From positions 1-21,515 of IMG/VR virus record IMGVR_UViG_3300027911_000075: 21,515 nucleotides of DNA. The stretch is one strand, 5' to 3'. Positions 1,024-12,055 of the stretch are shown here, one piece after another (position 1 is the first letter of the stretch; each line of letters starts with the position of its first letter). A model generated the notes under the pieces. It saw nothing but the letters and a program-made list of their open reading frames with translations. It had not been told where the DNA came from and did not search any database. The position numbers and the translations under genes are program-made. The stretch comes from a virus.

Positions 1024-1514
1024 GTACGTGGTGGCGTAGGGGGCCCAAGGAGGCCGTGCTGGAGAGCTGGGCGGCGGAGCGCGCCCGGGAGCTGGGTGGC
1101 CGGCTGGAGAAGCTCCCGCCGACGATGGGCGAGAAGCACCGCCCGGACCGGGTGTTCGTCCACCCGCGCCGGCCTGCGGCCTATCTGGAGCTCAAGCGCC
1201 AAGGGGAGACCGCGACCCTTGAGCAGGAGTTCGTCCTCACCCGGCTGCGCGCCGAGGGCTACGTGGCCGGGTGGGCGAACACCCGGGAGGGCGTGGAGGT
1301 CTTCCTCAAGGCCGCGATGAAGCCCCCGCTGGTCATGGCGCTCGGGATCTGGCAGGAGGCACTCAAGGATCGGGAGGTCGAGGATGACAAGAAACGGGTT
1401 CCTAGCGGGCGTCGGCGCCGGGGTGATAGTGGGAACGCTGCTCTCCTGGCTGGTATTGGAGCCTCGCCTGCGGTCGCTGGTGGGGTCGGCGGTAGCGACC
1501 GGGTGCCGCGCTGA
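1020..1514 (+). CDS. VRR-NUC domain nuclease
   Basis: The 164-aa product carries the VRR-NUC version of the PD-(D/E)XK nuclease fold in its first 105 residues: PD at 42-43 (Asp43), ELK at 57-59 (Glu57 and Lys59) and Gln69 in a following helix. This matches the family pattern of PD, then ExK after about 13 residues, then Gln. Stand-alone phage VRR-NUC proteins are usually 90-130 aa and commonly sit beside an SNF2-type helicase, as here; they are thought to act in recombination or processing of branched DNA. The last 45 residues are low-complexity (Gly, Arg, Ser) and overlap another frame with a convincing membrane segment (1384). The stop overlaps the helicase ATG by one base (TGATG), which supports this end. 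Confidence 0.85.
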   Translation: MSTWWRRGPKEAVLESWAAERARELGGRLEKLPPTMGEKHRPDRVFVHPRRPAAYLELKRQGETATLEQEFVLTRLRAEGYVAGWANTREGVEVFLKAAMKPPLVMALGIWQEALKDREVEDDKKRVPSGRRRRGDSGNAALLAGIGASPAVAGGVGGSDRVPR

Positions 1515-2953
1515 TGGCGACACCGTCGTCACGTACCGCCCTCTACCCTCACCAAGCTATCGCCTTGGAAAGGTGGATGGACCAGCCAAGGTTGGGGCTG
1601 GCGCTCCAGCCGGGGCTGGGCAAGACCCGCACGGTGCTGGAAGCCATACGGCTGTCGGTGGACGTCCGGCCGTGGCTCGTGGTGGCGCCCAAGCGGGTGG
1701 TGGCGACCGTGTGGCGGCAGGAGAACGAAAAGTGGGGGGCGCTGCCGCCGGGGGCCATCGTGGCGCTGGGGTCGGAGGACTTCCGGCTCGGGCTGGTGCC
1801 AAGGAAGCCCAGCCGGACCGATCCAAGCCCGAAGGGCCTTGAGCGGGGGTTCAAGGACCTTGCGGCCACGCGGGCGCACCTGAGGGCCGTTATCGAGGCC
1901 CACAGGGTGGTCGTGGTGTCGTGGGACTATGTGTTTTGGCTCGCTGCCGCCGTCGTGACCGCGCGCCCGGTCTTCGGGGGCCTCGTCCTCGACGAGTCCC
2001 ACTACGTCAAGGACCAAGGGACCCAGCGCTTCAAGGCGGTGCGCCGGTTGGCCGCCGGGTGCGTGATGCGGACCGCGCTCAACGGGACCCCGATCGCCAA
2101 CGGGTGGGAGGACACGTGGTCCCAGTCCTTCCTGCTGGATCTCGGCGAGACCTTTGGGCGGACACTGACCGATTTCCGGCGTCGGTTCCTGTCCGCCTAC
2201 GTGGATGAGCATAACCGGGTCAAGTACGGCGAGCCCTCACAGGCCCAGCGCGGGGAGCTGGAGGCGCTCTTCCCCAAGCTCTGGCTCCCCATGACCGCCA
2301 AGGGCTGGGTCGCGCTCCCGGACCTGATCGTCAACGACATCGTCGTCGAGCTCGATAGCGCGCCCATGGGGACCGCGAGCAGGCTCATGCGGGCCGCGCT
2401 CGCTGACCTGCCGGACGGAACGCAAGTGCTGCCCCCCAACGTGGCGGCGGGGATCGGCAAGGCCCTGCAGGTCTGTCAGGGCCGGGCCTACGTGGACGAC
2501 AAGGTCGTGGTGGTGCACAACGCCAAGCGGGACGCGCTCGCCGAGCTCTCGCAGGAGATCGAGGGCGGGGCGCTGGTCTTCTACGAGTACCGGCACGACA
2601 TGGACGCTATACGGCAGGCGCTGGGCGACCGGGTGGGCTTTATCGAGGACCCCGGCGCGCAGGGGGCGTGGCAGGCCGGGCGGGTCCAGTTCCTGGCCGC
2701 GCACCCGGCCTCGATGGCGGTCGGGCTGAACCTGCAGAGCCGGGGCAACACCGTGATCTGGTACGGGCTCACGTGGGACTCGTTCCTGTACCAGCAGGCC
2801 AACGCCCGGGTGCACCGGCTGGGCAACGAGCACCCGAGCGTGATCGTGCACCGTATCGTGAGCGCGCACCCCGTGGAGCGTATGCAGGCCCGCGCGCTGT
2901 TGGGGAAGATGAATCTACTTTCAGCCGTAATGGCACTCAAGGGGGAACTGTGA
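1514..2953 (+). CDS. SNF2/DEAD-type DNA helicase
   Basis: This 479-aa superfamily 2 ATPase has the helicase motifs in order: a Q-motif-like YPHQ near residue 11, Walker A PGLGKT at 33-38, motif Ia VVAPKRV near 56-62, motif II DESH at 160-163, and motif III NGTPIANG at 190-197. The C-terminal half contains ALVFYEY (motif IV-like), GLNLQSR (motif V) and QQANARVHRLG (motif VI, arginine finger). The DESH box and the QQANARxHRxG signature point to the SNF2-like branch common in phage genomes. It probably translocates on duplex DNA during replication or recombination alongside the VRR-NUC protein encoded just upstream. The start is set by the TGATG overlap. The length is complete for the phage form. 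Confidence 0.95.
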   Translation: MATPSSRTALYPHQAIALERWMDQPRLGLALQPGLGKTRTVLEAIRLSVDVRPWLVVAPKRVVATVWRQENEKWGALPPGAIVALGSEDFRLGLVPRKPSRTDPSPKGLERGFKDLAATRAHLRAVIEAHRVVVVSWDYVFWLAAAVVTARPVFGGLVLDESHYVKDQGTQRFKAVRRLAAGCVMRTALNGTPIANGWEDTWSQSFLLDLGETFGRTLTDFRRRFLSAYVDEHNRVKYGEPSQAQRGELEALFPKLWLPMTAKGWVALPDLIVNDIVVELDSAPMGTASRLMRAALADLPDGTQVLPPNVAAGIGKALQVCQGRAYVDDKVVVVHNAKRDALAELSQEIEGGALVFYEYRHDMDAIRQALGDRVGFIEDPGAQGAWQAGRVQFLAAHPASMAVGLNLQSRGNTVIWYGLTWDSFLYQQANARVHRLGNEHPSVIVHRIVSAHPVERMQARALLGKMNLLSAVMALKGEL

Positions 2954-3444
2954 GCGGAAACCTGATCACCCGCGTCCTGCGCGCGGAGCAGTCGTCGGAC
3001 CTGAGCGAGGACGCCGGGGACGTGGATGTCGTGCGCGCGGTCGGCGCGGCCGGACTACGGCGCCGGCTTGGGTCCTACCTGCCCCGGTTCCTTGCCAGCG
3101 ACGGCCGGGACTACCGGCAGACGATCATCGACACCGTGGCGGGCGCGCTCCGCTCGGAGTACCCGAAGCTCACCGAGACCCAGCGGGTGGCGGTGGCCAC
3201 GTGCGCCACCTACCTGTACCTGAAGCCCCGATGCCCGGCGTGCCATGGCCGGGGCTATGAGCTGATGCCGGACGCGCCGAAGCTCTCGGACGTCTTCTGC
3301 AGGGTATGCAACGGGAGCGGCCGCAACGCGACCGGGGAGGAGTTCAAAGAAATACGCCCAGCACTCGGCTGGGCGCAGAACCTCATCGAGCAGTCGGCCG
3401 AGCGCTACAGTGTAGCGGTCGGTCGAAAGCTCGGGCGGGACTAG
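2950..3444 (+). CDS. Zinc-finger protein resembling lambda Q antitermination protein
   Basis: The GTG start lies in the GTGA overlap with the helicase stop; the frame is open upstream only as a shadow of the helicase. The 164-aa product has two CxxCxGxG knuckles: CPACHGRG (Cys95, Cys98) and CRVCNGSG (Cys117, Cys120). They are preceded by a helical region and an ATCATYLYLKPR segment and followed by a helix ending at the C-terminus. Size, paired knuckles, spacing and flanking helices recall the Q-type antiterminators of lambdoid phages, which load on RNA polymerase at the late promoter. DnaJ-like zinc domains share the knuckles, so a general zinc-binding protein is the alternative. It is the last gene of the early rightward operon, a fitting place for a late regulator. 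Confidence 0.6.
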   Translation: MSGNLITRVLRAEQSSDLSEDAGDVDVVRAVGAAGLRRRLGSYLPRFLASDGRDYRQTIIDTVAGALRSEYPKLTETQRVAVATCATYLYLKPRCPACHGRGYELMPDAPKLSDVFCRVCNGSGRNATGEEFKEIRPALGWAQNLIEQSAERYSVAVGRKLGRD

Positions 3445-3445
3445 G

Positions 3446-3826
3446 TCACGCCCCGTCGTGTGCCCCCCGGGAGCGGGACACCCAGCTCCCGACCGCGGCG
3501 CTGAAGTCCGGGGCCAGAGTCGAGGTGCTCCGCGGCGGGCGCTTGAACATCTCCTCGGCCTCGCGGTCCCATACGTCGACGGGTATCGCGGTCTGGAGGT
3601 TGGTGCGCGAGCGCCCGGTCTCGAACTCAAAGAGCTCGTTCAGGAAGATCGCGACCGCGCGGGGATCGGTGAGGCCGTTCTCCGTGGTCGCAACCATGAG
3701 CTGGCTCACCAGCTCCAGCAACGTGGCCGCGTCCTGAAGCCCCTCGGCGAGGTGCGCCTCCGGGGTACGGTTGGCAACGAACTGGGCGGTGACTCGTGCG
3801 GTGGTGATGCGGCGAAATTCTTTCAT
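3446..3826 (-). CDS. Hypothetical protein (126 aa), last gene of leftward operon
   Basis: I chose the ATG at 3826, giving a start MKEFRRI, because AGGGGTAA lies just upstream and the preceding gene ends only four bases away; a longer version would overlap that gene heavily. The 126-residue product looks helical and acidic in the middle (LFEFETG, DREAEEMF) with a basic tail. No motif or family was recognised. Its TGA (3448-3446) faces the stop of the rightward Q-like gene with a single base between them and no hairpin terminator, so the two transcripts must run into each other or end elsewhere. Confidence 0.7.
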   Translation of the reverse strand: MKEFRRITTARVTAQFVANRTPEAHLAEGLQDAATLLELVSQLMVATTENGLTDPRAVAIFLNELFEFETGRSRTNLQTAIPVDVWDREAEEMFKRPPRSTSTLAPDFSAAVGSWVSRSRGAHDGA

Positions 3827-3830
3827 GTGC

Positions 3831-4022
3831 TTACCCCTGATGATGGGGCCATAGCGTGCGGCCCCGACGTGGTTCGTAGTCGCGATGTATGCGACCGATG
3901 TTGGCAAAGCTCTCCCGCTCGGCCGGGCTCATGTCCTCCACCAGCTTCGCGCCCGGTGTCCTGCGTACCTCGGCGAGCTCGCGCTCTACGGCGCGCTGGC
4001 TCGCCGCCTCGGCGCGGGTCAT
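3831..4022 (-). CDS. Hypothetical small protein (63 aa)
   Basis: The start is the ATG at 4022, which overlaps the stop of an 11-codon upstream reading frame (ATGA); AAGGTG precedes it by five bases. The product is 63 aa, highly charged and helical: an Arg/Glu/Ala-rich first half (AEAASQRAVERELAEVRR) and a second half containing DMSPAERESFANIGRIHRDYEP. No known domain was recognised. It belongs to the set of very small leftward genes. If the short upstream frame were joined to it by a frameshift the protein would be 11-12 residues longer, and a sequencing indel there cannot be excluded. Confidence 0.65.
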   Translation of the reverse strand: MTRAEAASQRAVERELAEVRRTPGAKLVEDMSPAERESFANIGRIHRDYEPRRGRTLWPHHQG

Positions 4023-4054
4023 GCCTGCACCTTGTCGCTGTCATAGATTGCCAT
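4019..4054 (-). CDS. Possible 11-codon leader peptide
   Basis: An ATG at 4054 sits six bases after a strong ribosome-binding site (AAAGGAC, reading leftward) and encodes MAIYDSDKVQA before TGA. The stop overlaps the ATG of the 63-aa gene. The ribosome-binding site is better than the one directly in front of that gene, so ribosomes probably load here and reinitiate downstream. It is either a coupling leader or the true N-terminus of the next gene split by an indel. Confidence 0.4.
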   Translation of the reverse strand: MAIYDSDKVQA

Positions 4055-4127
4055 GGTCTGTCCTTTTGTTATCGGTTGCCACTATTGGCGCCCGTGAGGC
4101 CCGCCTGTCACGCGGGCCCGGCTGGCG
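4055..4127 (-). promoter_or_regulatory. Intergenic linker D1: hairpin plus ribosome-binding site
   Basis: Read leftward, the upstream gene's stop begins the conserved TGACGCCAGCC. A stem follows, made by GGCCCGC (4098-4104) and GCGGGCC (4112-4118) with a seven-base loop. A stretch ACCGATAACAAAAGGA then supplies the Shine-Dalgarno for the leader at 4054. It shares CACTATTG with a CGCCCG-like run and the GGCTGGCGT end with linker D2, and the CCAGCC-hairpin-Shine-Dalgarno plan with linkers A, B and C. There is no T-tract after the hairpin, so it is unlikely to be a simple terminator. Confidence 0.6.
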
Positions 4128-4343
4128 TCAGTTCCTTTCGGCGTTCAGGACCGGATCGAGCTCAACGTGGCTCCCGAGCACGGCGTCGCAGGCCGCGACG
4201 ACCCGCTCGCAAAGCGTGAGCAGCTCGTCGAGGTCGTTGCACTGGTCTATATCGAACCGGGCCCACGACCCCACGTGCTTGGATCGGTCGATCATGGTCC
4301 GCGCTTGGAGCCGCAGGTCCCCGAGGTGGCTGCGACTAAGCAT
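4128..4343 (-). CDS. Hypothetical small protein (71 aa)
   Basis: The ATG at 4343 lies within the end of the preceding gene (8-nt overlap, ATGCTTAG), so it depends on translational coupling; the GGCGG upstream is only a weak ribosome-binding site. The 71-aa product looks all-helical with a Leu-rich core (LDELLTLCERVVAACDAVLG), two cysteines and a C-terminal ELDPVLNAERN. No known domain was recognised. The TGA stop is part of the conserved CCAGCC linker that follows. Confidence 0.65.
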   Translation of the reverse strand: MLSRSHLGDLRLQARTMIDRSKHVGSWARFDIDQCNDLDELLTLCERVVAACDAVLGSHVELDPVLNAERN

Positions 4344-4602
4344 GGTGACCGCCGGCTTCGATGATGCGCTTAATGTGGCGGTTCGCGTAGATCGCGGTGC
4401 GTGCGACCTGCGCCGCCGTGGTCGCGTCCGCGCAGGTCGAGTAGCGGGGCTTGGCCCAGCGACCCTCGGCGAGGTTCAGGATGCCCCACTGCAGTCCCTC
4501 GGGGGTCTCCTGCGCGTACACGCTCAAGGGGTAGATGTCCCCAACGGAGTGCTCCTGCAGTCCGCCGGTATTGTGGCCGTGGCCGGAATAGGTGATGTCC
4601 AT
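4336..4602 (-). CDS. Hypothetical small protein (88 aa)
   Basis: The ATG at 4602 has GAGGAG nine bases upstream. An ATG directly after the GAGGAGC is in another frame and too close to be used. The product begins MDITYSGHGHNTGG and has a YPLSVYAQETPEGLQWGILNLAEGRW region that looks like a small beta-rich fold, followed by a helix (ATTAAQVARTAIYANRHIK). No enzyme motif is visible, and the family was not recognised. It starts a two-gene unit with the 71-aa gene and is preceded by linker D2. Confidence 0.7.
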   Translation of the reverse strand: MDITYSGHGHNTGGLQEHSVGDIYPLSVYAQETPEGLQWGILNLAEGRWAKPRYSTCADATTAAQVARTAIYANRHIKRIIEAGGHHA

Positions 4603-4695
4603 GCTGTCATGCTCCTCGTTGTCGGTCGCACTATTGCGCCCGGTACAGGACCGATTCTGAACCGATCCTGTGGCTGGCGTAATACCGCATTTAGG
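4603..4695 (-). promoter_or_regulatory. Intergenic linker D2: hairpin plus ribosome-binding site
   Basis: On the leftward transcript ACAGGATCGGT (4671-4661) pairs with ATCGGTCCTGT (4655-4645) around a five-base loop. All 11 pairs form when G-U wobble is allowed at two positions; in the rightward sense those two positions are mismatches. This argues that the structure works as leftward RNA. It is preceded by ACGCCAGCC, as in the other linkers, and followed by CGACCGACAACGAGGAGC, the ribosome-binding site of the 88-aa gene. The upstream gene ends about 25 bases before the hairpin. Confidence 0.6.
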
Positions 4696-5061
4696 TTAGA
4701 AGTGGATCGTGACCCCCAGCTTGGTGTTGTGTTTGACCACGACCGCCTCGAACACGATGACCCCGCCCAAGTACGTGGTCCGCCACACGGGCGGCAGCAC
4801 GTCGGCGATGACGTAGGTGGCGACCGCCGCGCCCGCGAAGTAGGCCGTGATCTTGGCCTTGCTGGGGTGCGTGCCCAAGATCGGGTTCTGCTCGTACAGG
4901 TCCGGGCGCCCCGGCAGCTGCATGGTCTGGCTGTAGTCCGCCAGCTCGGTGGCGTACGCGCCCACCAGCAGCGCCCGATCTGTCGCGGTCCACTCGGCCG
5001 CGATGACGGGCAGGGTACAGCTTGCGTATACCGCGAGGAGTGCCAGCTTTAGCTTGCTCAT
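4696..5061 (-). CDS. Membrane or exported protein with NPILG motif (121 aa)
   Basis: The ATG at 5061 overlaps the preceding stop (ATGA) and has GGGAG nine bases upstream. The N-terminus (MSKLKLALLAVYASCTLPVIAAE) is a clear signal peptide or signal anchor with probable cleavage after AA near residues 21-22. Two further hydrophobic segments lie around residues 71-90 and 96-112. Between them is a loop with YEQNPILGTHPSK. Small phage and bacterial membrane proteins with a similar E-NPILG-HPS loop exist, but I know of no assigned function. It most likely sits in the inner membrane of the host, where it could affect envelope functions or superinfection. That role is inference. Confidence 0.75.
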   Translation of the reverse strand: MSKLKLALLAVYASCTLPVIAAEWTATDRALLVGAYATELADYSQTMQLPGRPDLYEQNPILGTHPSKAKITAYFAGAAVATYVIADVLPPVWRTTYLGGVIVFEAVVVKHNTKLGVTIHF

Positions 5062-5255
5062 TCTGTCAGCTCCCTAAAATTGACCCGCTCGCACAGGTCG
5101 TCGATAAGGTCGTCGGCCAGCACGTCGTGCTCGCCCCCGTTGGTCGCGATGTCCTCGATACGCGCGCTGTAGCGCCCCTCCTGAAGCAGGCGGAGCCCCG
5201 CGAGTATCGCGGCGACCTCCTCGGGGCTGAGCGCTGGCTTGTGTTGCCTTGGCAT
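5058..5255 (-). CDS. Hypothetical small protein (65 aa)
   Basis: I chose the ATG at 5255 because GAGGAG sits seven bases upstream, right at the end of linker A; the frame stays open further upstream only because it runs through the GC-rich linker. The 65-aa product is acidic: residues 9-25 (LSPEEVAAILAGLRLLQ) look like a helix, and the C-terminal half contains DIATNGGEHDVLADDLIDDLCERV. No domain was recognised. It forms a coupled pair with the membrane protein downstream (ATGA overlap). Confidence 0.7.
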   Translation of the reverse strand: MPRQHKPALSPEEVAAILAGLRLLQEGRYSARIEDIATNGGEHDVLADDLIDDLCERVNFRELTE

Positions 5256-5261
5256 GGTAGA

Positions 5262-5328
5262 GCTCCTCGTAATGGTGGCCGGGATGGCCCCCGCTCCTGC
5301 GCCCTCGTGGGCGCAGTGACTGGGGTCA
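5262..5328 (-). repeat. Intergenic linker A (67-bp repeat, 66/67 identical to linker C)
   Basis: Read leftward it starts with the stop codon of the 67-aa gene in TGACCCCAGTCA, then an 8-bp perfect stem CTGCGCCC/GGGCGCAG with a four-base loop, then GCGGGGGCCATCCCGGCCACC, then ATTACGAGGAGC, the ribosome-binding site of the 65-aa gene. By direct comparison it matches 6154-6220 except at one base (5319 against 6211). Linker B shares the stem part. Confidence 0.85.
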
Positions 5329-5529
5329 GCGCGCGAAGTTTCGTTGAATGAACTGCTGTTCCCGGGTCGTGTCCTCAATGTCGAGGCGGGCCCCGTTCTC
5401 GGCGAACAGCCGAATCTCGATCTTTTCCCCACGGTCGGTCGTGATGCAGAGGCATTTGTAGTAGGCGTCCCGCACCTCGTCGAGGGGCGTGATGGTGATA
5501 CGTGCCACTTGGTGGATGCTAAGGTCCAT
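5326..5529 (-). CDS. Hypothetical small protein (67 aa)
   Basis: The ATG at 5529 has AAAGGA seven bases upstream; a longer frame upstream is only the shadow of the preceding gene and linker. The 67-aa product begins MDLSIHQVARITITPLDEV. It alternates strand-like stretches (VARITITPL, KCLCITTD, EKIEIRLFAENGA) and ends in a charged helix (DIEDTTREQQFIQRNFAR). This suggests a small beta-sheet domain of the kind seen in phage-encoded host-binding proteins; the family is not recognised. It is a single-gene unit flanked by linkers B and A. Confidence 0.7.
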   Translation of the reverse strand: MDLSIHQVARITITPLDEVRDAYYKCLCITTDRGEKIEIRLFAENGARLDIEDTTREQQFIQRNFAR

Positions 5530-5605
5530 GTCGATTCCTTTCGGTTGTCGTGAGCCCTGATTGGCCCCCGCTCCTGCGCCCACGAGGGCGCAGTGGCTGG
5601 GGTCA
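5530..5605 (-). repeat. Intergenic linker B (hairpin with reversed loop)
   Basis: Read leftward: TGACCCCAGCCA containing the stop codon of the 144-aa gene, then the same 8-bp stem as linkers A and C, then GGAGCGGGGGCC. After that it diverges to CGACAACCGAAAGGA, the ribosome-binding site of the 67-aa gene. The tetraloop is the reverse complement of that in A and C (on the plus strand ACGA here, TCGT there), as if the stem-loop had been flipped. Confidence 0.8.
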
Positions 5606-6037
5606 TTCCTCGCCGTCGTCCTCGTCGTCCGGGCGCCAGTCTTGCGTAAAGAAATCGCGCGCCAAGGTCTCAAGGTGATCGGCGCACTCGGTCCGCGTGG
5701 GCGCGTTCCCAGTACGGCGGATCGTGCGTGCGTACCACTGGCCAAAGGGCTCCGAGACCTCGTAGTCGAAGACCCCCGGCAGGTCGCGATCGTACGTTCC
5801 GTCCGCTAGCGCGCCCTCGACGTTGGCCAGCAACCAGATGGCCCACGTGGCCACCTCGGTGATAGCCTCCACCTCGCCAAGCCCCTCCGCCTGCTTGAAC
5901 TCGTGGAACCAGCCCTGATCGCCCGGGTGGATGTAGGCGTTCCCTGCGGTCCGGTAGACCTCGTCGAAGAACCCCCGCGTGATAAACGCGGCCGTGGTGG
6001 CCAAGGCCTCCGGGGTGTCAAAGCGAATGGGTGTCAT
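5603..6037 (-). CDS. Hypothetical acidic protein (144 aa)
   Basis: The ATG at 6037 overlaps the stop of the 37-aa gene (ATGA) and is preceded by AGGAGG five bases away. The 144-aa product is the largest of the leftward set. It has helical segments rich in Trp, Phe and Tyr (FITRGFFDEVYRTAG, ITEVATWAIWLLANVEG, FGQWYARTIRRTG) and ends in a very acidic tail (RPDDEDDGEE). Acidic tails of this sort occur in phage inhibitors that mimic DNA, but here that is only a possibility. No family was recognised. Confidence 0.75.
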   Translation of the reverse strand: MTPIRFDTPEALATTAAFITRGFFDEVYRTAGNAYIHPGDQGWFHEFKQAEGLGEVEAITEVATWAIWLLANVEGALADGTYDRDLPGVFDYEVSEPFGQWYARTIRRTGNAPTRTECADHLETLARDFFTQDWRPDDEDDGEE

Positions 6038-6147
6038 GCTGCCTCCTGTGTGTGGGTTTCGACCGTGATGGTGGTGCCGTCGGCGAGCTCAAAGAACTCG
6101 ACGCACGAGCCGTCGTCCCGTTCAACGATGATGACCGAATAATCCAT
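6034..6147 (-). CDS. Very small protein (37 aa)
   Basis: The ATG at 6147 has GAGGAG seven bases upstream, supplied by linker C, and its TGA overlaps the next gene's ATG (GCATGA). The product runs from MDYSVIIVERDDGS to a THTQEAA end, with a VEFFELADGTTITVE core. Two or three beta strands are likely. Good signals at both ends make it a convincing gene in spite of its size. The function is unknown. Confidence 0.65.
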   Translation of the reverse strand: MDYSVIIVERDDGSCVEFFELADGTTITVETHTQEAA

Positions 6148-6153
6148 GCTAAC

Positions 6154-6220
6154 GCTCCTCGTAATGGTGGCCGGGATGGCCCCCGCTCCTGCGCCCTCGT
6201 GGGCGCAGTGGCTGGGGTCA
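6154..6220 (-). repeat. Intergenic linker C (67-bp repeat, 66/67 identical to linker A)
   Basis: It has the same parts as linker A: TGACCCCAGCCA, perfect 8-bp stem with four-base loop, a GGCCATCCCGGCC fold, and ACGAGGAGC as the ribosome-binding site of the 37-aa gene. Here the TGA at its start is not the stop codon: the upstream gene ends at TAG 6225-6223, three bases before the element. Confidence 0.85.
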
Positions 6221-6222
6221 GC

Positions 6223-6435
6223 CTAGACGGGTGCGACCCGCCAGTCCTCGTCCGCGTACGGTTCGTCCATGAAGCCCTCCTCAAACGCCATCTTGGTGCT
6301 GAGCAGCAGGTCCCGGCGCTCCTCCTCGGCCTCGGCCTCGGTCTCGTACGTGACCAGCGCATCGTCGATATCGAGCCCGACGTCCTCCCACTCCCCGTTG
6401 AGCAGGCGGGTCTGCAGCTTCCAGCGCTGTCCCAT
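6223..6435 (-). CDS. Hypothetical small acidic protein (70 aa)
   Basis: The ATG at 6435 has AAGGAG about six bases upstream, inside the last codons of the preceding gene, with a two-base gap between them. The 70-aa product begins MGQRWKLQTRLLNGEWEDVG (a likely beta hairpin), continues with DIDDALVTYETEAEAEEERRDLL (a helix rich in Glu) and ends DEPYADEDWRVAPV. It is strongly acidic. No family was recognised. The same frame is open to 6753, but that longer form would overlap the complete upstream gene and has a poor ribosome-binding site. Confidence 0.7.
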   Translation of the reverse strand: MGQRWKLQTRLLNGEWEDVGLDIDDALVTYETEAEAEEERRDLLLSTKMAFEEGFMDEPYADEDWRVAPV

Positions 6436-6437
6436 GG

Positions 6438-6668
6438 TCACTCCTTCACGCTCAGGACGTCGTCGAGCCGATCGCAGGCCACGAGAAAATGGATGATGTT
6501 CGAGGCCTCGCGGCTCAACTGGCCGTTGTGTTCGAGGATGACGAGCGAGCCCTTGATGAAGCACAGGCGGGCGTCGGCGTACTTTTTGGACTTCGGGGAG
6601 AGCCCCAGCCCCTTGGCCTGAGCGGCCCATGACAGACTGAGGAGGCGTTTGATGTCGTTTGAGAGCAT
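6438..6668 (-). CDS. Hypothetical small protein (76 aa), first gene of leftward operon
   Basis: The ATG at 6668 is preceded by GAAAGG about eight bases away. The 76-aa product is helical and basic in its first half (NDIKRLLSLSWAAQAKGLGLSPKSKKYADAR) and hydrophobic to acidic in its second half (IIHFLVACDRLDDVLSVKE). No DNA-binding motif or enzyme motif is evident. As the promoter-proximal gene of the leftward operon it is probably expressed early and strongly; that is inference from position. Confidence 0.7.
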   Translation of the reverse strand: MLSNDIKRLLSLSWAAQAKGLGLSPKSKKYADARLCFIKGSLVILEHNGQLSREASNIIHFLVACDRLDDVLSVKE

Positions 6669-6916
6669 GGTGACGGCCTTTCATGTTGGTGATGATTGGG
6701 TAATCGGTGGTACGGAACGGATCTTGAGGCCTTTCGGGGGGCTTGTGTGTCATAAACCTGCAGAAAGCAATAAAATTGCGTCTTCGATCAAAAGACGCAA
6801 TAATCTTGCTTCAGGGTCGGCGTTGCCAGTCGCGTGCCATTGCCTATTGACTACGGGTCATTTATCCTGATTTTCGACGCACTCATAGAGTGCTAACCGC
6901 AACCCGGCAATCCACG
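6669..6916. promoter_or_regulatory. Divergent intergenic region, relatively AT-rich
   Basis: This region separates the leftward operon from the rightward gene at 6917, so promoters for both directions should be here. It is visibly richer in A+T than its surroundings, most of all at 6750-6880. TTGACT at 6847-6852 could be a -35 box for rightward transcription, but no good -10 box stands 16-18 bases downstream. I could not pick a convincing leftward promoter either. The long palindrome at 6765-6811 is the main feature. Confidence 0.5.
6765..6811. promoter_or_regulatory. Long interrupted palindrome (operator or terminator-like hairpin)
   Basis: ATTGCGTCTT (6775-6784) and AAGACGCAAT (6792-6801) are perfect 10-bp arms around a seven-base loop. 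Outside them AAGCAA (6765-6770) and TTGCTT (6806-6811) pair again after four unpaired bases on each side. Read leftward the inner hairpin is followed by TTTATTGCTTT, so it could end leftward transcription. Its place in a divergent promoter region also suits a repressor-binding site. Confidence 0.65.
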
Positions 6917-7598: not shown

Positions 7599-8069
7599 AT
7601 GAAGTCCACCAAGAGCCAGTACGAGATCTGGGAAGCAAACCAGCGCGCGCGGGAGGCGGGCAAACGGTATTGCGTTAAGTGCGACACCGTCAAGGAGGCC
7701 GTCGACTTTAACCCCTCCGACCGCGAACGCCTCGGCGCCTACTGCCGGGCGTGCAAGCAAAAATACAACCGGGACCGGTACCTAGCCAAGGGCCATCTTG
7801 AGAGCCCAAGCAAGCACCGGTCCGAGACCTACGGACTTAGCGAGGAGCAGTACCAGCAGCTGATGGCGGACCAGGGCCACCGGTGCGGTTCCTGCGAAAT
7901 CGAGCTCACGGCGCTCCACCGCAGAAAGGTCCATGTCGACCATGACCACGCCACCGGCAGGGTCCGCGGGATCCTGTGCATGTGGTGCAACGTAATGCTC
8001 GGCGGCGCGCGCGATAACCCGGACAGCCTTCGGGGCGCGATCCAATACCTACAAAGAACGCGTTCGTAG
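7599..8069 (+). CDS. HNH endonuclease, recombination endonuclease VII-like
   Basis: The ATG at 7599 follows AGGAGGG closely. The 156-aa protein has a first zinc site (Cys25, Cys28, Cys49, Cys52), then YGLSEEQYQQLMADQGHRC leading to a second site (Cys96, Cys99, Cys127, Cys130). Between the two pairs of that site is the catalytic core DHDH (114-117) with RVRGILCMWCNVMLG, where Asn131 completes the ββα-metal motif. This pattern is the endonuclease VII family signature (T4 gp49 resolves branched DNA before packaging). Phage members may be resolvases or free-standing homing-type nucleases. The last three codons and the TAG stop lie inside the tRNA-Gly gene. Confidence 0.93.
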   Translation: MKSTKSQYEIWEANQRAREAGKRYCVKCDTVKEAVDFNPSDRERLGAYCRACKQKYNRDRYLAKGHLESPSKHRSETYGLSEEQYQQLMADQGHRCGSCEIELTALHRRKVHVDHDHATGRVRGILCMWCNVMLGGARDNPDSLRGAIQYLQRTRS

Positions 8070-8133
8070 CTCGAAGGCCGAGCCACGGTTTTCCAAACCG
8101 ACGGTGAGGGTTCGATTCCCTCCGGACGCTCCA
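8060..8133 (+). tRNA. tRNA-Gly (anticodon UCC), CCA encoded
   Basis: The acceptor stem GCGTTCG (8060-8066) pairs with CGGACGC (8123-8129), with one G-T wobble. The D-arm is GCTC/GAGC with a seven-base loop containing GG. The anticodon arm CGGT/ACCG has the loop TTTCCAA (8090-8096), anticodon TCC at 8092-8094. A four-base variable region, T-arm GAGGG/CCCTC with loop TTCGATT, discriminator T and CCA (8131-8133) follow. U73 is a usual tRNA-Gly identity base in bacteria. The only defect is an A-A mismatch at pair 27-43. Its first ten bases overlap the end of the HNH gene. Confidence 0.93.
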
Positions 8134-10177: not shown

Positions 10178-10671
10178 TGGAGCGCGGTCACCACAAGAAC
10201 AAGTTCAACACCACCGGCGAGGGCGATAAGCCCGTGGGCTATACCACGTCCACCGCTCACGAGCCCAGCGTGGCCAACCAGATCGGCGGCAGCGGCCGCA
10301 CAACCCGCGGGAGCCGCGGCCGGGGGCTGAATTTCCAGCTCTTGGCGGACGTGCTCGAGCGCGAAAGCGAGGACCCCAACGGTCTTAACATCGCGGAGGC
10401 GATCGTCACCGCCCTCAAGGGGGGCGACCTCGACCCCAAGACCAAGCTCCTGGCCCAGCTCGAGCTCCTGCAGTACATCCAGCCCAAGCTCAAGGCGATC
10501 GAGCACAAGGGCAAGGTCGAGCTCGATTCCGAGACCGCCGACGCGCGGCTGAACTACCTCTTGAGCAAACTTGGAGCACCCGGTGGCAATAAACCTGGAC
10601 AACCTGACGGCCAACGAGAAGCGGGAGCTGATCGAGCTGTGGGGTCTGGCCGAGACGAACCGCAAGCGTAA
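10177..10671 (+). CDS. terS: Terminase small subunit (probable)
   Basis: The ATG at 10177 shares one base with the previous TGA (TGATG). The 164-aa product has a polar, basic N-terminus and a GRTTRGSRGRGLNF stretch. A helical core follows, with IAEAIVTALKGGDLDPKTKLLAQLELLQYIQPKLKAIEH, typical of the helical small subunits that recognise phage DNA and feed it to the large subunit. The assignment rests on this core and on its position directly upstream of and overlapping terL. The polar C-terminus overlaps the first 89 bases of terL, which is long for this genome; the last residues may be non-essential. Confidence 0.75.
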   Translation: MERGHHKNKFNTTGEGDKPVGYTTSTAHEPSVANQIGGSGRTTRGSRGRGLNFQLLADVLERESEDPNGLNIAEAIVTALKGGDLDPKTKLLAQLELLQYIQPKLKAIEHKGKVELDSETADARLNYLLSKLGAPGGNKPGQPDGQREAGADRAVGSGRDEPQA

Positions 10672-12055
10672 TTGGCTCGCGACCTATCGGCCCTACAAGA
10701 AGCAGATCGCGTTCCACAACGCGGGCGCTCACTTCCGCGAGCGCTGCTTCCTGGCCGCCAACCAGTCCGGCAAGACCCTGTCGGCGGCCGCCGAGATCGC
10801 GATCCACGCCACCGGGCTCTATCCGGACTGGTGGGAGGGCTGGCGGTTTAACCGACCAACGGTCGGGATCGTCGGCTCCGAGTCCTTTGACCTGAACAAG
10901 CGCGGCCTGCAGCGGCTGCTGCTGGGGCGCGCGGACCAGAAGGAGGAGTGGGGCACGGGGACGATCCCCTACGCCCAGCTGGTGCGCTATACGATGGTCC
11001 AGGGGGTGCAGGACGCGGTCGCAACGATCACCGTCAAGCACGTCCCCAGCGGGGAGAACAGCGTCATCCAGCTCGCTTCCTACGAGCAGGGGCGCACCAA
11101 GTGGCAGGCCGACACCGTGGACTACGTGTTCATGGACGAGGAGCCGCCCAGCGACATATACTTCGAGGCCCTTACCCGGACTAACGTCTCGGGGGGCCCG
11201 ATAGCCATGACCTTCACGCCATTGTTGGGCGCCTCCCAGGTCGTGCGGCTGTTCCTCCCGATAACGGGGGAGCGGGCGCCCTCCCGGGAGCTGGTCACAA
11301 TGACGATCGACGACGCCGAGCACTACTCCCCGGAGGAGCGGGCGGCGATCATCGCGCAATACCCCGAGCACGAACGCGAGGCGCGCGCCTTCGGGCGCCC
11401 CGTTTTGGGGAGCGGTATGGTGTTCCCGGTGGCCGAGTCCGCCGTCCGGGTCGAGCCCTTCCAGATCCCCGACTACTGGGGACGGGTGCTGGGGATGGAC
11501 TTTGGGTACGACCACCCGACCGCGGGCGCTTGGTGCGCCTACGACGCCGATACGGACACGATCTACGTCTTCAAGACCTATCGGCGGTCCCGGGCGACGA
11601 TCAGCGAGAACGCCGCGAGCCTGCGGGCGCCAATGCCATGGATACCGGTCGCGTGGCCCCATGACGGGCTCCAGCACGACAAGCAGGCCGGGCGGGCGCT
11701 CAAGGACCTGTACAAGGACGCGGGGCTCAATATGGTCCCCAAGCACGCGACCTTTACCGAGAACGACATCAGCTCGTTCTCGTTCGAGGCCGGCATCACC
11801 GAGATGCTCGATCGGATGCAGACCGGGCGCCTCAAGGTGTTCTCGACCTGCACCGAGTTCTTCGAGGAGATGCGGGCCTACCACCGCAAGGACGGTAAGG
11901 TCGTCAAGGTCCTGGACGACGTCATAAGTGCCGTCCGGTACGCGATGATGATGCGCCGCTATGCCCGCTCCAAGCAAGAGCTGGCACCGCAAAAAACAAT
12001 CGGGGGCACGCCCCTGGTCTCGTTCGGGGTCCTTGATCCCGAGACGGGGTATTGA
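10583..12055 (+). CDS. terL: Terminase large subunit
   Basis: I prefer the GTG at 10583, seven bases after GGAG; a TTG at 10571 would add four residues. The 490-aa motor-nuclease has Walker A ANQSGKT at 59-65, Walker B VFMDEE at 182-187 and a coupling region with AMTFTPLLG. The C-terminal RNase H-like nuclease starts at MDFGYDHP (Asp306), and VLDDVISAVRY supplies acidic residues 445-446. It packages DNA through the portal and cuts concatemers. It is complete in length for the family and is followed by a strong terminator. Confidence 0.95.
   Translation: MAINLDNLTANEKRELIELWGLAETNRKRNWLATYRPYKKQIAFHNAGAHFRERCFLAANQSGKTLSAAAEIAIHATGLYPDWWEGWRFNRPTVGIVGSESFDLNKRGLQRLLLGRADQKEEWGTGTIPYAQLVRYTMVQGVQDAVATITVKHVPSGENSVIQLASYEQGRTKWQADTVDYVFMDEEPPSDIYFEALTRTNVSGGPIAMTFTPLLGASQVVRLFLPITGERAPSRELVTMTIDDAEHYSPEERAAIIAQYPEHEREARAFGRPVLGSGMVFPVAESAVRVEPFQIPDYWGRVLGMDFGYDHPTAGAWCAYDADTDTIYVFKTYRRSRATISENAASLRAPMPWIPVAWPHDGLQHDKQAGRALKDLYKDAGLNMVPKHATFTENDISSFSFEAGITEMLDRMQTGRLKVFSTCTEFFEEMRAYHRKDGKVVKVLDDVISAVRYAMMMRRYARSKQELAPQKTIGGTPLVSFGVLDPETGY

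Follow-up and report, generated by a model that had tools for sequence, protein, structure and literature searches.

The viral DNA record IMGVR_UViG_3300027911_000075 of IMG/VR, analysed here over its full 21,515 nucleotides (hereafter the window), is a 21.5-kb phage fragment in which a leftward block of very small genes (mini-genes; minus strand, 6668-3446) is divided by five structured intergenic linkers, A to E, into units of one to three coupled genes. On balance, we favour the reading that linkers A-E are RNA punctuation elements, with a processing or insulating role, which also act as recombination seams. Processing of mRNA is proposed as the primary role because relatives of the phage place hammerhead ribozymes in the same slot, i.e. 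between the stop codon of one gene and the Shine-Dalgarno sequence (SD) of the next, and a role as homology seams is proposed because the linkers include near-identical repeats at gene boundaries.

Five linkers share a sequence plan and a fold

Each of linkers A-E is situated between a stop codon and the next SD and is built on the same plan: CNCCAG(C/T)C at or just past the stop, a hairpin, GGGNGC, a short second hairpin and the SD. When searched as CNCCAG(C/T)C, a hairpin of at least 6 bp and GGGN'GC, with N and N' paired, the pattern occurs five times in the window, in each case at one of the A-E junctions, versus a mean of 0.01 (maximum 1) in 200 dinucleotide shuffles. This bears out an earlier note on this DNA, which had proposed five junctions with a shared CCAG(C/T)C, hairpin and SD. 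The same pattern gave two further matches only, both dissimilar, in the loci searched with it. The linkers, with the evidence for each, are:

6148..6222 (core 6155-6217), minus strand: linker A, with P1 CCCC/GGGG, an AGCC internal loop, an 8-bp hairpin and SD (pattern, fold, A/C identity)
5530..5602 (core 5536-5602), minus strand: linker B (pattern, fold)
5256..5325 (core 5263-5325), minus strand: linker C, 95% identical to A from stop to ATG (pattern, A/C identity)
4603..4695 (core 4612-4679), minus strand: linker D, with P1 CGCC/GGCG, a 12-bp hairpin, an AUAG mini-hairpin, ACCGACAAC and SD (pattern, fold)
4055..4127 (core 4061-4127), minus strand: linker E, with P1 CGCC/GGCG, an 8-bp hairpin, an AUAG mini-hairpin, ACCGATAAC and SD (pattern, fold)

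Linkers A and C are 99% identical over 69 nt (the stop-to-ATG comparison being over 78 nt), whereas the coding DNA that flanks them is 13-28% identical, i.e. unrelated, so the proposal of near-identical linkers between unrelated genes stands. Two further elements of the proposed plan fared less uniformly. The ACCGA-AAC-like stretch can be recognised clearly in D and E but only loosely in B, and the match is poor in A and C; CCAG(C/T)C was said to overlap or adjoin the stop codon, and the stop does adjoin CNCC in B, C and E, with that of D lying about 16 nt upstream and that of A, a TGA within the linker, being redundant because the upstream gene had already ended at TAG. Linker A thus looks, from its sequence, as though it had been joined to a new gene.

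Folding z-scores relative to shuffles are -3.9 (A), -3.1 (B), -2.3 (C), -2.9 (D) and -1.8 (E). The P1 pairing is kept across a C-G to G-C swap between A-C and D/E, and the inner hairpins of the two sets, the sequences of which are unrelated, are all fully paired; these base pairs were counted by hand, because a MAFFT alignment of A-E misplaces the hairpins of D and E. Two identities for A-E were rejected. They are not hammerheads, there being no CUGANGA...GAAA core by pattern, no NUH site and no Rfam match, and they are not intrinsic terminators, there being no U run and no site at these positions in a terminator scan.

Hammerheads and other structured RNAs fill the same slot in relatives

The order helicase, zinc-finger gene, block, small gene, terminase, portal and capsid holds in eleven relatives wherever the genes were found, with the DNA helicase (window 1514..2953, plus strand; phrog_62, E 2e-91) as the left and the terminase large subunit (10571..12055, plus strand) as the right synteny anchor. 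The relative G002 (64.8 kb, capsid 83% identical) has the gene order of the window around its block, which likewise consists of small genes with a repeated linker, the linker sequence being unlike that of the window. In the stop-SD slots of G002 there are four type II hammerheads (the two best with Rfam E 0.003 and 0.006), in all of which the core, stem II and closed stems I and III can be made out; no other type II cores were found in its genome. The copies have a UGAY loop in stem I opposite a RUCA tail past stem II, which agrees with the type II pseudoknot (PMC3088659). Three type II hammerheads and one of type III lie in the block of G016, and one of each type in that of G007. By their core, stems I-III and NUH site, as read from the sequence, and with Rfam matches to RF02276/RF00008 at E 0.003-0.1, the linkers of G002, G016 and G007 classify as type II/III hammerheads. 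A type I core is present in G023 and L037.

Among type II hammerhead hits in IMG/VR (n=130), a stop codon is at the 5' edge in 83% versus 8% of controls, and a stop together with an SD/start in 46% versus 0.9%. In two relatives the stop of the upstream gene falls within the hammerhead, in the loop of stem III (G016/L052) or in CUGAUGA (G023/L067), so that translation termination and ribozyme folding overlap. Hammerheads are a class known to self-cleave; judging from the known cleavage site, self-cleavage of the type II copies would leave the upstream message ending in the stem III hairpin and the downstream one with stem I and the SD.

Two other structured RNAs are found in the slot. The first, L3, is in 10 of 29 relatives and comprises an 11-bp hairpin, GGCGGYGUAU and a second stem around GRCCG-AAC. 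Over seven copies 99% of the paired cells are paired, with seven pairs changed on both sides, covariation that exceeds nearly all shuffled and all slid controls, and a covariance model built from L3 copies picks up further strong members. An Rfam scan of the L084 locus, which has two copies, did not recognise L3. L3 is between stop and SD, sometimes with a terminator-like U run at its end; in G023 and L037 its block also contains a type I hammerhead. The copies, all on the minus strand, are:

L218 17087-17143, 16136-16192 and 15560-15616: L3
L084 392-447 and 1594-1649; L060 445-501; L057 2710-2765: L3
L064 625-680; L072 394-449; L067 816-871: L3
L037 959-1014; L225 1352-1413: L3

A 13-mer, GCGACCGACAACG, common to linker D and G005 had suggested kinship between A-E and L3. 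A-E as diverged L3 was rejected: the best overlaps with the covariance model, R1, are D at 6.2 bits and E at 2.6, versus 51-84 bits for true members.

The second, L4, is present in G009, G019 and G020, where it has a folded consensus with compensatory changes in four pairs and no Rfam match:

L057 at 353, minus strand; L060 at 256, minus strand; L220 at 873, plus strand; L221 at 5852, minus strand: L4, a GAUC-closed AGCGUG-hairpin-GCAGUGCGAUC

L4 precedes a TIGR03299 gene and one other gene, and an alternative hairpin overlaps it. Orthologues of the TIGR03299 gene are preceded by a type II hammerhead in G002, a type I hammerhead in G023, L3 in G005 and L4 in G009, G019 and G020; different linker classes thus replace one another at one junction.

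Gene content changes at linkers in relatives

Comparison of G007 with G016 reveals where gene content changes. Their DNA homology breaks off at the SD module AGTCCCAGGAGGACA, a few bases short of a start codon, and restarts at another copy of AGTCCCAGGAGGACA behind the inserted gene; farther on, it restarts at the hammerhead itself, after four genes unique to G007. Duplicated linkers stand beside unrelated genes in the window, G002 and G016. Modular shuffling at linkers is supported by these sequence comparisons, and we infer homologous recombination through the linkers from the repeats and the block ends.

The modular gene-shuffling layout that the earlier note had proposed for the window is supported in relatives with other linker types, the check it had suggested, on whether gene content changes at linkers, having a positive answer for the hammerhead-type linkers of G007 and G016. 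The search for the linker in related phages had a divided outcome, with other structured linkers occupying the slot and the window-type linker being found in no relative. The outcome that would have spoken against the layout, an unchanging gene order whose linkers had diverged or been lost, was not seen in the relatives, none of which carries the linker type of the window.

A proposed punctuation role and its alternatives

We propose that the eleven mini-genes are probably transcribed as one leftward polycistronic RNA, in which each linker would fold directly behind a stop and before the next SD, marking a point at which the RNA is cut or its end protected. Each unit of one or two genes might then become its own message, ending in a hairpin on the 3' side and beginning with a clean ribosome site on the 5' side. 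In the window, the hammerhead slot would be filled by an unclassified structured RNA that cleaves itself or is cut by a nuclease of the host or the phage, and the linkers may double as homology seams for the gain, loss or swap of units. Because the linkers are placed like type II hammerheads, i.e. stop and then SD, the economical reading is that they too punctuate the transcript; it is from this position that we infer their cleavage.

Several observations weigh against this proposal. The window-type linker is known from five copies in one phage, A-C are near-identical in their core, and tight patterns found no homologue; conservation among A-C is inseparable from recent duplication for these reasons. 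A tight pattern gave zero matches in IMG/VR and, in GTDB genomes, 11 matches, none of them linker-like, most being without a real hairpin and apparently coding. Linkers A-E have neither a known ribozyme core nor an Rfam family; a scan of the window at lax Rfam thresholds returned only a tRNA and spurious matches, and nothing at the linkers up to E 10. With respect to the relatives, the hammerhead matches fall below Rfam gathering scores, the G002 copies carry a non-canonical extra U next to or before stem II, and other junctions of the same relatives are plain hairpins or have no linker.

In a protein-cutter version of the punctuation reading, the linkers are not ribozymes but sites for RNase III or another host nuclease, which we regard as possible, if doubtful. 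An 8-12 bp hairpin with an internal loop and a 4-bp helix right behind the stop would suit such sites, as would the lack of a ribozyme core in A-E, and the T7 early operon provides a precedent; the conserved unpaired AGYC and GGGNGC are, however, unusual for them, and relatives fill the slot with self-cleaving RNA classes. It is rather unlikely, in our estimation, that the window linkers together with L3 and L4 represent new small self-cleaving ribozyme classes, which in this lineage would be interchangeable with hammerheads as cassette punctuation.

Another reading is that the linkers are mainly DNA recombination seams, i.e. gene-capture spacers that carry an SD and have no RNA function. In its favour, the A/C identity spans exactly stop to ATG, linker A contains a redundant TGA, and the homology blocks of relatives break at linkers. 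We nevertheless consider this improbable, as D and E hold their fold despite sequence change, which is needless for a DNA seam, and as ribozymes and covarying RNAs are located at the seam in relatives. Another unlikely proposal is that the linkers regulate translation initiation in the manner of the start-associated sequences (SAS) and ESAS of mycobacteriophages (PMC3203893), perhaps through a phage protein that binds them and governs all units together. Although a linker is always just upstream of an SD, and an ACCGAYAAC-like stretch is common to D, E and, loosely, B, linkers precede only the first gene of a unit and not the coupled second genes, they begin at the upstream stop and not near the start codon, and hammerheads fill the slot in relatives. 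Intrinsic terminators or attenuators between units are very improbable: the hairpins are GC-rich and behind stop codons, and some relatives' junctions do have terminator-like hairpins with U runs, but A-E all lack a U run and are negative in the terminator scan.

The mini-genes and their products

Codon-usage scoring, trained on the structural and replication genes of the window, is positive in the called frame for 10 of the 11 mini-genes and neutral for that at 3831-4022, with long shadow ORFs (open reading frames) on the plus strand scoring negative. The mini-genes are coding, one of them marginally. The ORFs (37-144 residues, tightly packed, with an additional 11-residue leader ORF) and their codon usage agree with the earlier description of about eleven leftward mini-genes in coupled units. 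Designating genes by their lower coordinate, the order of units and linkers is 6438, 6223; A; 6034, 5603; B; 5326; C; 5058, 4696; D; 4336, 4128; E; leader, 3831, 3446. All the following are on the minus strand (LLR, codon log-likelihood ratio):

6775..6801: terminator-like hairpin upstream of mini-gene 1, near the operon start (terminator scan)
6438..6668: mini-gene 1, 76 residues, ORF with SD, LLR +0.34, no family match
6223..6435: mini-gene 2, 70 residues, ORF with SD, LLR +0.60
6034..6147: mini-gene 3, 37 residues, 4-nt overlap with gene 4 (ORF, codon usage)
5603..6037: mini-gene 4, 144 residues, probably helical (ORF, codon usage)
5326..5529: mini-gene 5, 67 residues (ORF, codon usage)
5058..5255: mini-gene 6, 65 residues (ORF, codon usage)
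4696..5061: mini-gene 7, 121 residues, hydrophobic stretches, homologue in G002
4336..4602: mini-gene 8, 88 residues, GHGxNTGGLQxHS domain, homologue in the G002 block
4128..4343: mini-gene 9, 71 residues (ORF, codon usage)
4019..4054: leader ORF of 11 codons, MAIYDSDKVQA, its TGA overlapping the ATG of mini-gene 10 (read from the sequence)
3831..4022: mini-gene 10, 63 residues, weak coding signal, LLR -0.02
3446..3826: mini-gene 11, 126 residues, LLR +0.37

Searches of Pfam, PHROGs and PADLOC covered ten mini-genes, some of which were also compared with NCBIfam, the PDB and phage records. No significant match was found for the ten in Pfam or PADLOC, or for the five tested in NCBIfam, and the four compared with 50,697 phage records have no relatives there. 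The only significant match of these searches is that of mini-gene 8 to PHROG families of unknown function. Almost all the mini-genes are without relatives, those of genes 7 and 8 being in G002: the homologue of mini-gene 7, which likely encodes a membrane protein as judged from its hydrophobic stretches, is 41% identical and at a different G002 locus (34117-34356), and that of mini-gene 8, which also has distant domain matches, is inside the G002 block behind a different intergenic sequence/linker. An AlphaFold2 model of the mini-gene 4 product has a pLDDT (predicted local distance difference test) of 54, too poor for interpretation. The earlier suggestion that the block is a store of host-takeover or anti-defence proteins is unsupported by the Pfam, PADLOC and NCBIfam searches of the genes tested; with only gene 8 matched, and that to families of unknown function, it is a guess from size and position.

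Ribozyme linkers were not seen in the relatives in L227-L229. L228, which has a homologue of gene 8, carries a sigma-70-like promoter and SD module, TTGACA...TATACT...AAGGAG...ATG, three times (2322-2389, 3737-3806 and 6657-6729), which could be a promoter-based version of the cassette idea.

The phage and its other features

The plus strand of the window codes for a helicase, terminase, portal/head-tail proteins and major capsid protein. DNA comparison with the 50,697 phage records gave no match for the window or for the mini-gene block, and capsid homologues in them are at most 42% identical; hundreds of capsid relatives are present in IMG/VR. L005 is in essence the same phage and adds sequence to the right. 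The gene between the helicase and the block (2911-3444), which is conserved next to the block in most relatives, has weak similarity to TIGR02642 and an anti-TRAP zinc-finger protein (E 0.016-0.033), and its product could be a regulator. About eleven direct TGTCCCATTTC-like iterons, with a long and near-perfect hairpin behind them, occupy 177-392, a region that looks like a replication origin or a regulator-binding region. A tRNA-Gly (TCC) gene is between the mini-gene block and the terminase region (8060-8133, plus strand). The last gene of the G002 block (L086 18781-20000) encodes a protein of many near-identical short repeats of GAASATG type, likely an extended repeat fold.

Comparison with known systems

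In the T7 early operon, intergenic hairpins are RNase III sites among small host-takeover genes. The window resembles it in having intergenic hairpins in an operon of small genes; there is no sequence relation, the helix is shorter and interrupted, and nuclease use is a hypothesis. The crystallised twister-sister ribozyme reportedly has CCAGCC-hairpin-GGGCGC, as in the window linkers. Its identity with A-E was rejected, since there is no Rfam match and the conserved residues of internal loop L1/SL4, i.e. the conserved loop strands and the SL4 loop, were absent on inspection (PMC5660989, PMC11620745).

In cluster K mycobacteriophages (PMC3203893), SAS denotes a 13-bp GGGATAGGAGCCC box located at the start codon, and ESAS has 17-bp inverted repeats; as in the window, a repeat and an inverted repeat are upstream of the starts of small non-structural genes. 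For hairpin-bearing repeats ahead of start codons, SAS/ESAS are the nearest precedent. Unlike these, the window element runs from stop to SD and has no SAS/ESAS sequences, the GGGATAGGAGCCC box being absent from the linkers as read, so SAS/ESAS identity was rejected. The likeness in idea rather than sequence that the earlier note drew is fair by position, with sequence and plan differing.

Perreault et al. 2011 (PMC3088659) described hammerheads clustered around single prophage genes and proposed a role in the processing of transcripts, i.e. the cutting of long phage transcripts into single-gene messages; such arrays cleaved in vitro, and one cleaved in vivo when expressed in E. coli. In these clusters, as in the window, a structured RNA recurs at the edges of single genes or of short gene blocks, and such clusters occur in the homologous block of relatives. 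Unlike them, the window linkers lack CUGANGA, GAAA and an NUH site. New relative to the literature searched are non-hammerhead linkers in the slot, which take the place of hammerheads in front of one orthologous gene, and the finding that linkers coincide with changes of gene content. A locus with three hammerhead types and several unclassified structured RNAs in one slot, in some cases before the same orthologous gene, makes testable the question of what intergenic hammerheads do for phages: if the non-hammerhead linkers also yield RNA ends, the function of the slot would be message punctuation, whatever the chemistry, and the locus would be a place to look for new ribozymes. The arrangement also offers a simple explanation of how phages might trade small accessory genes while keeping the operon intact.

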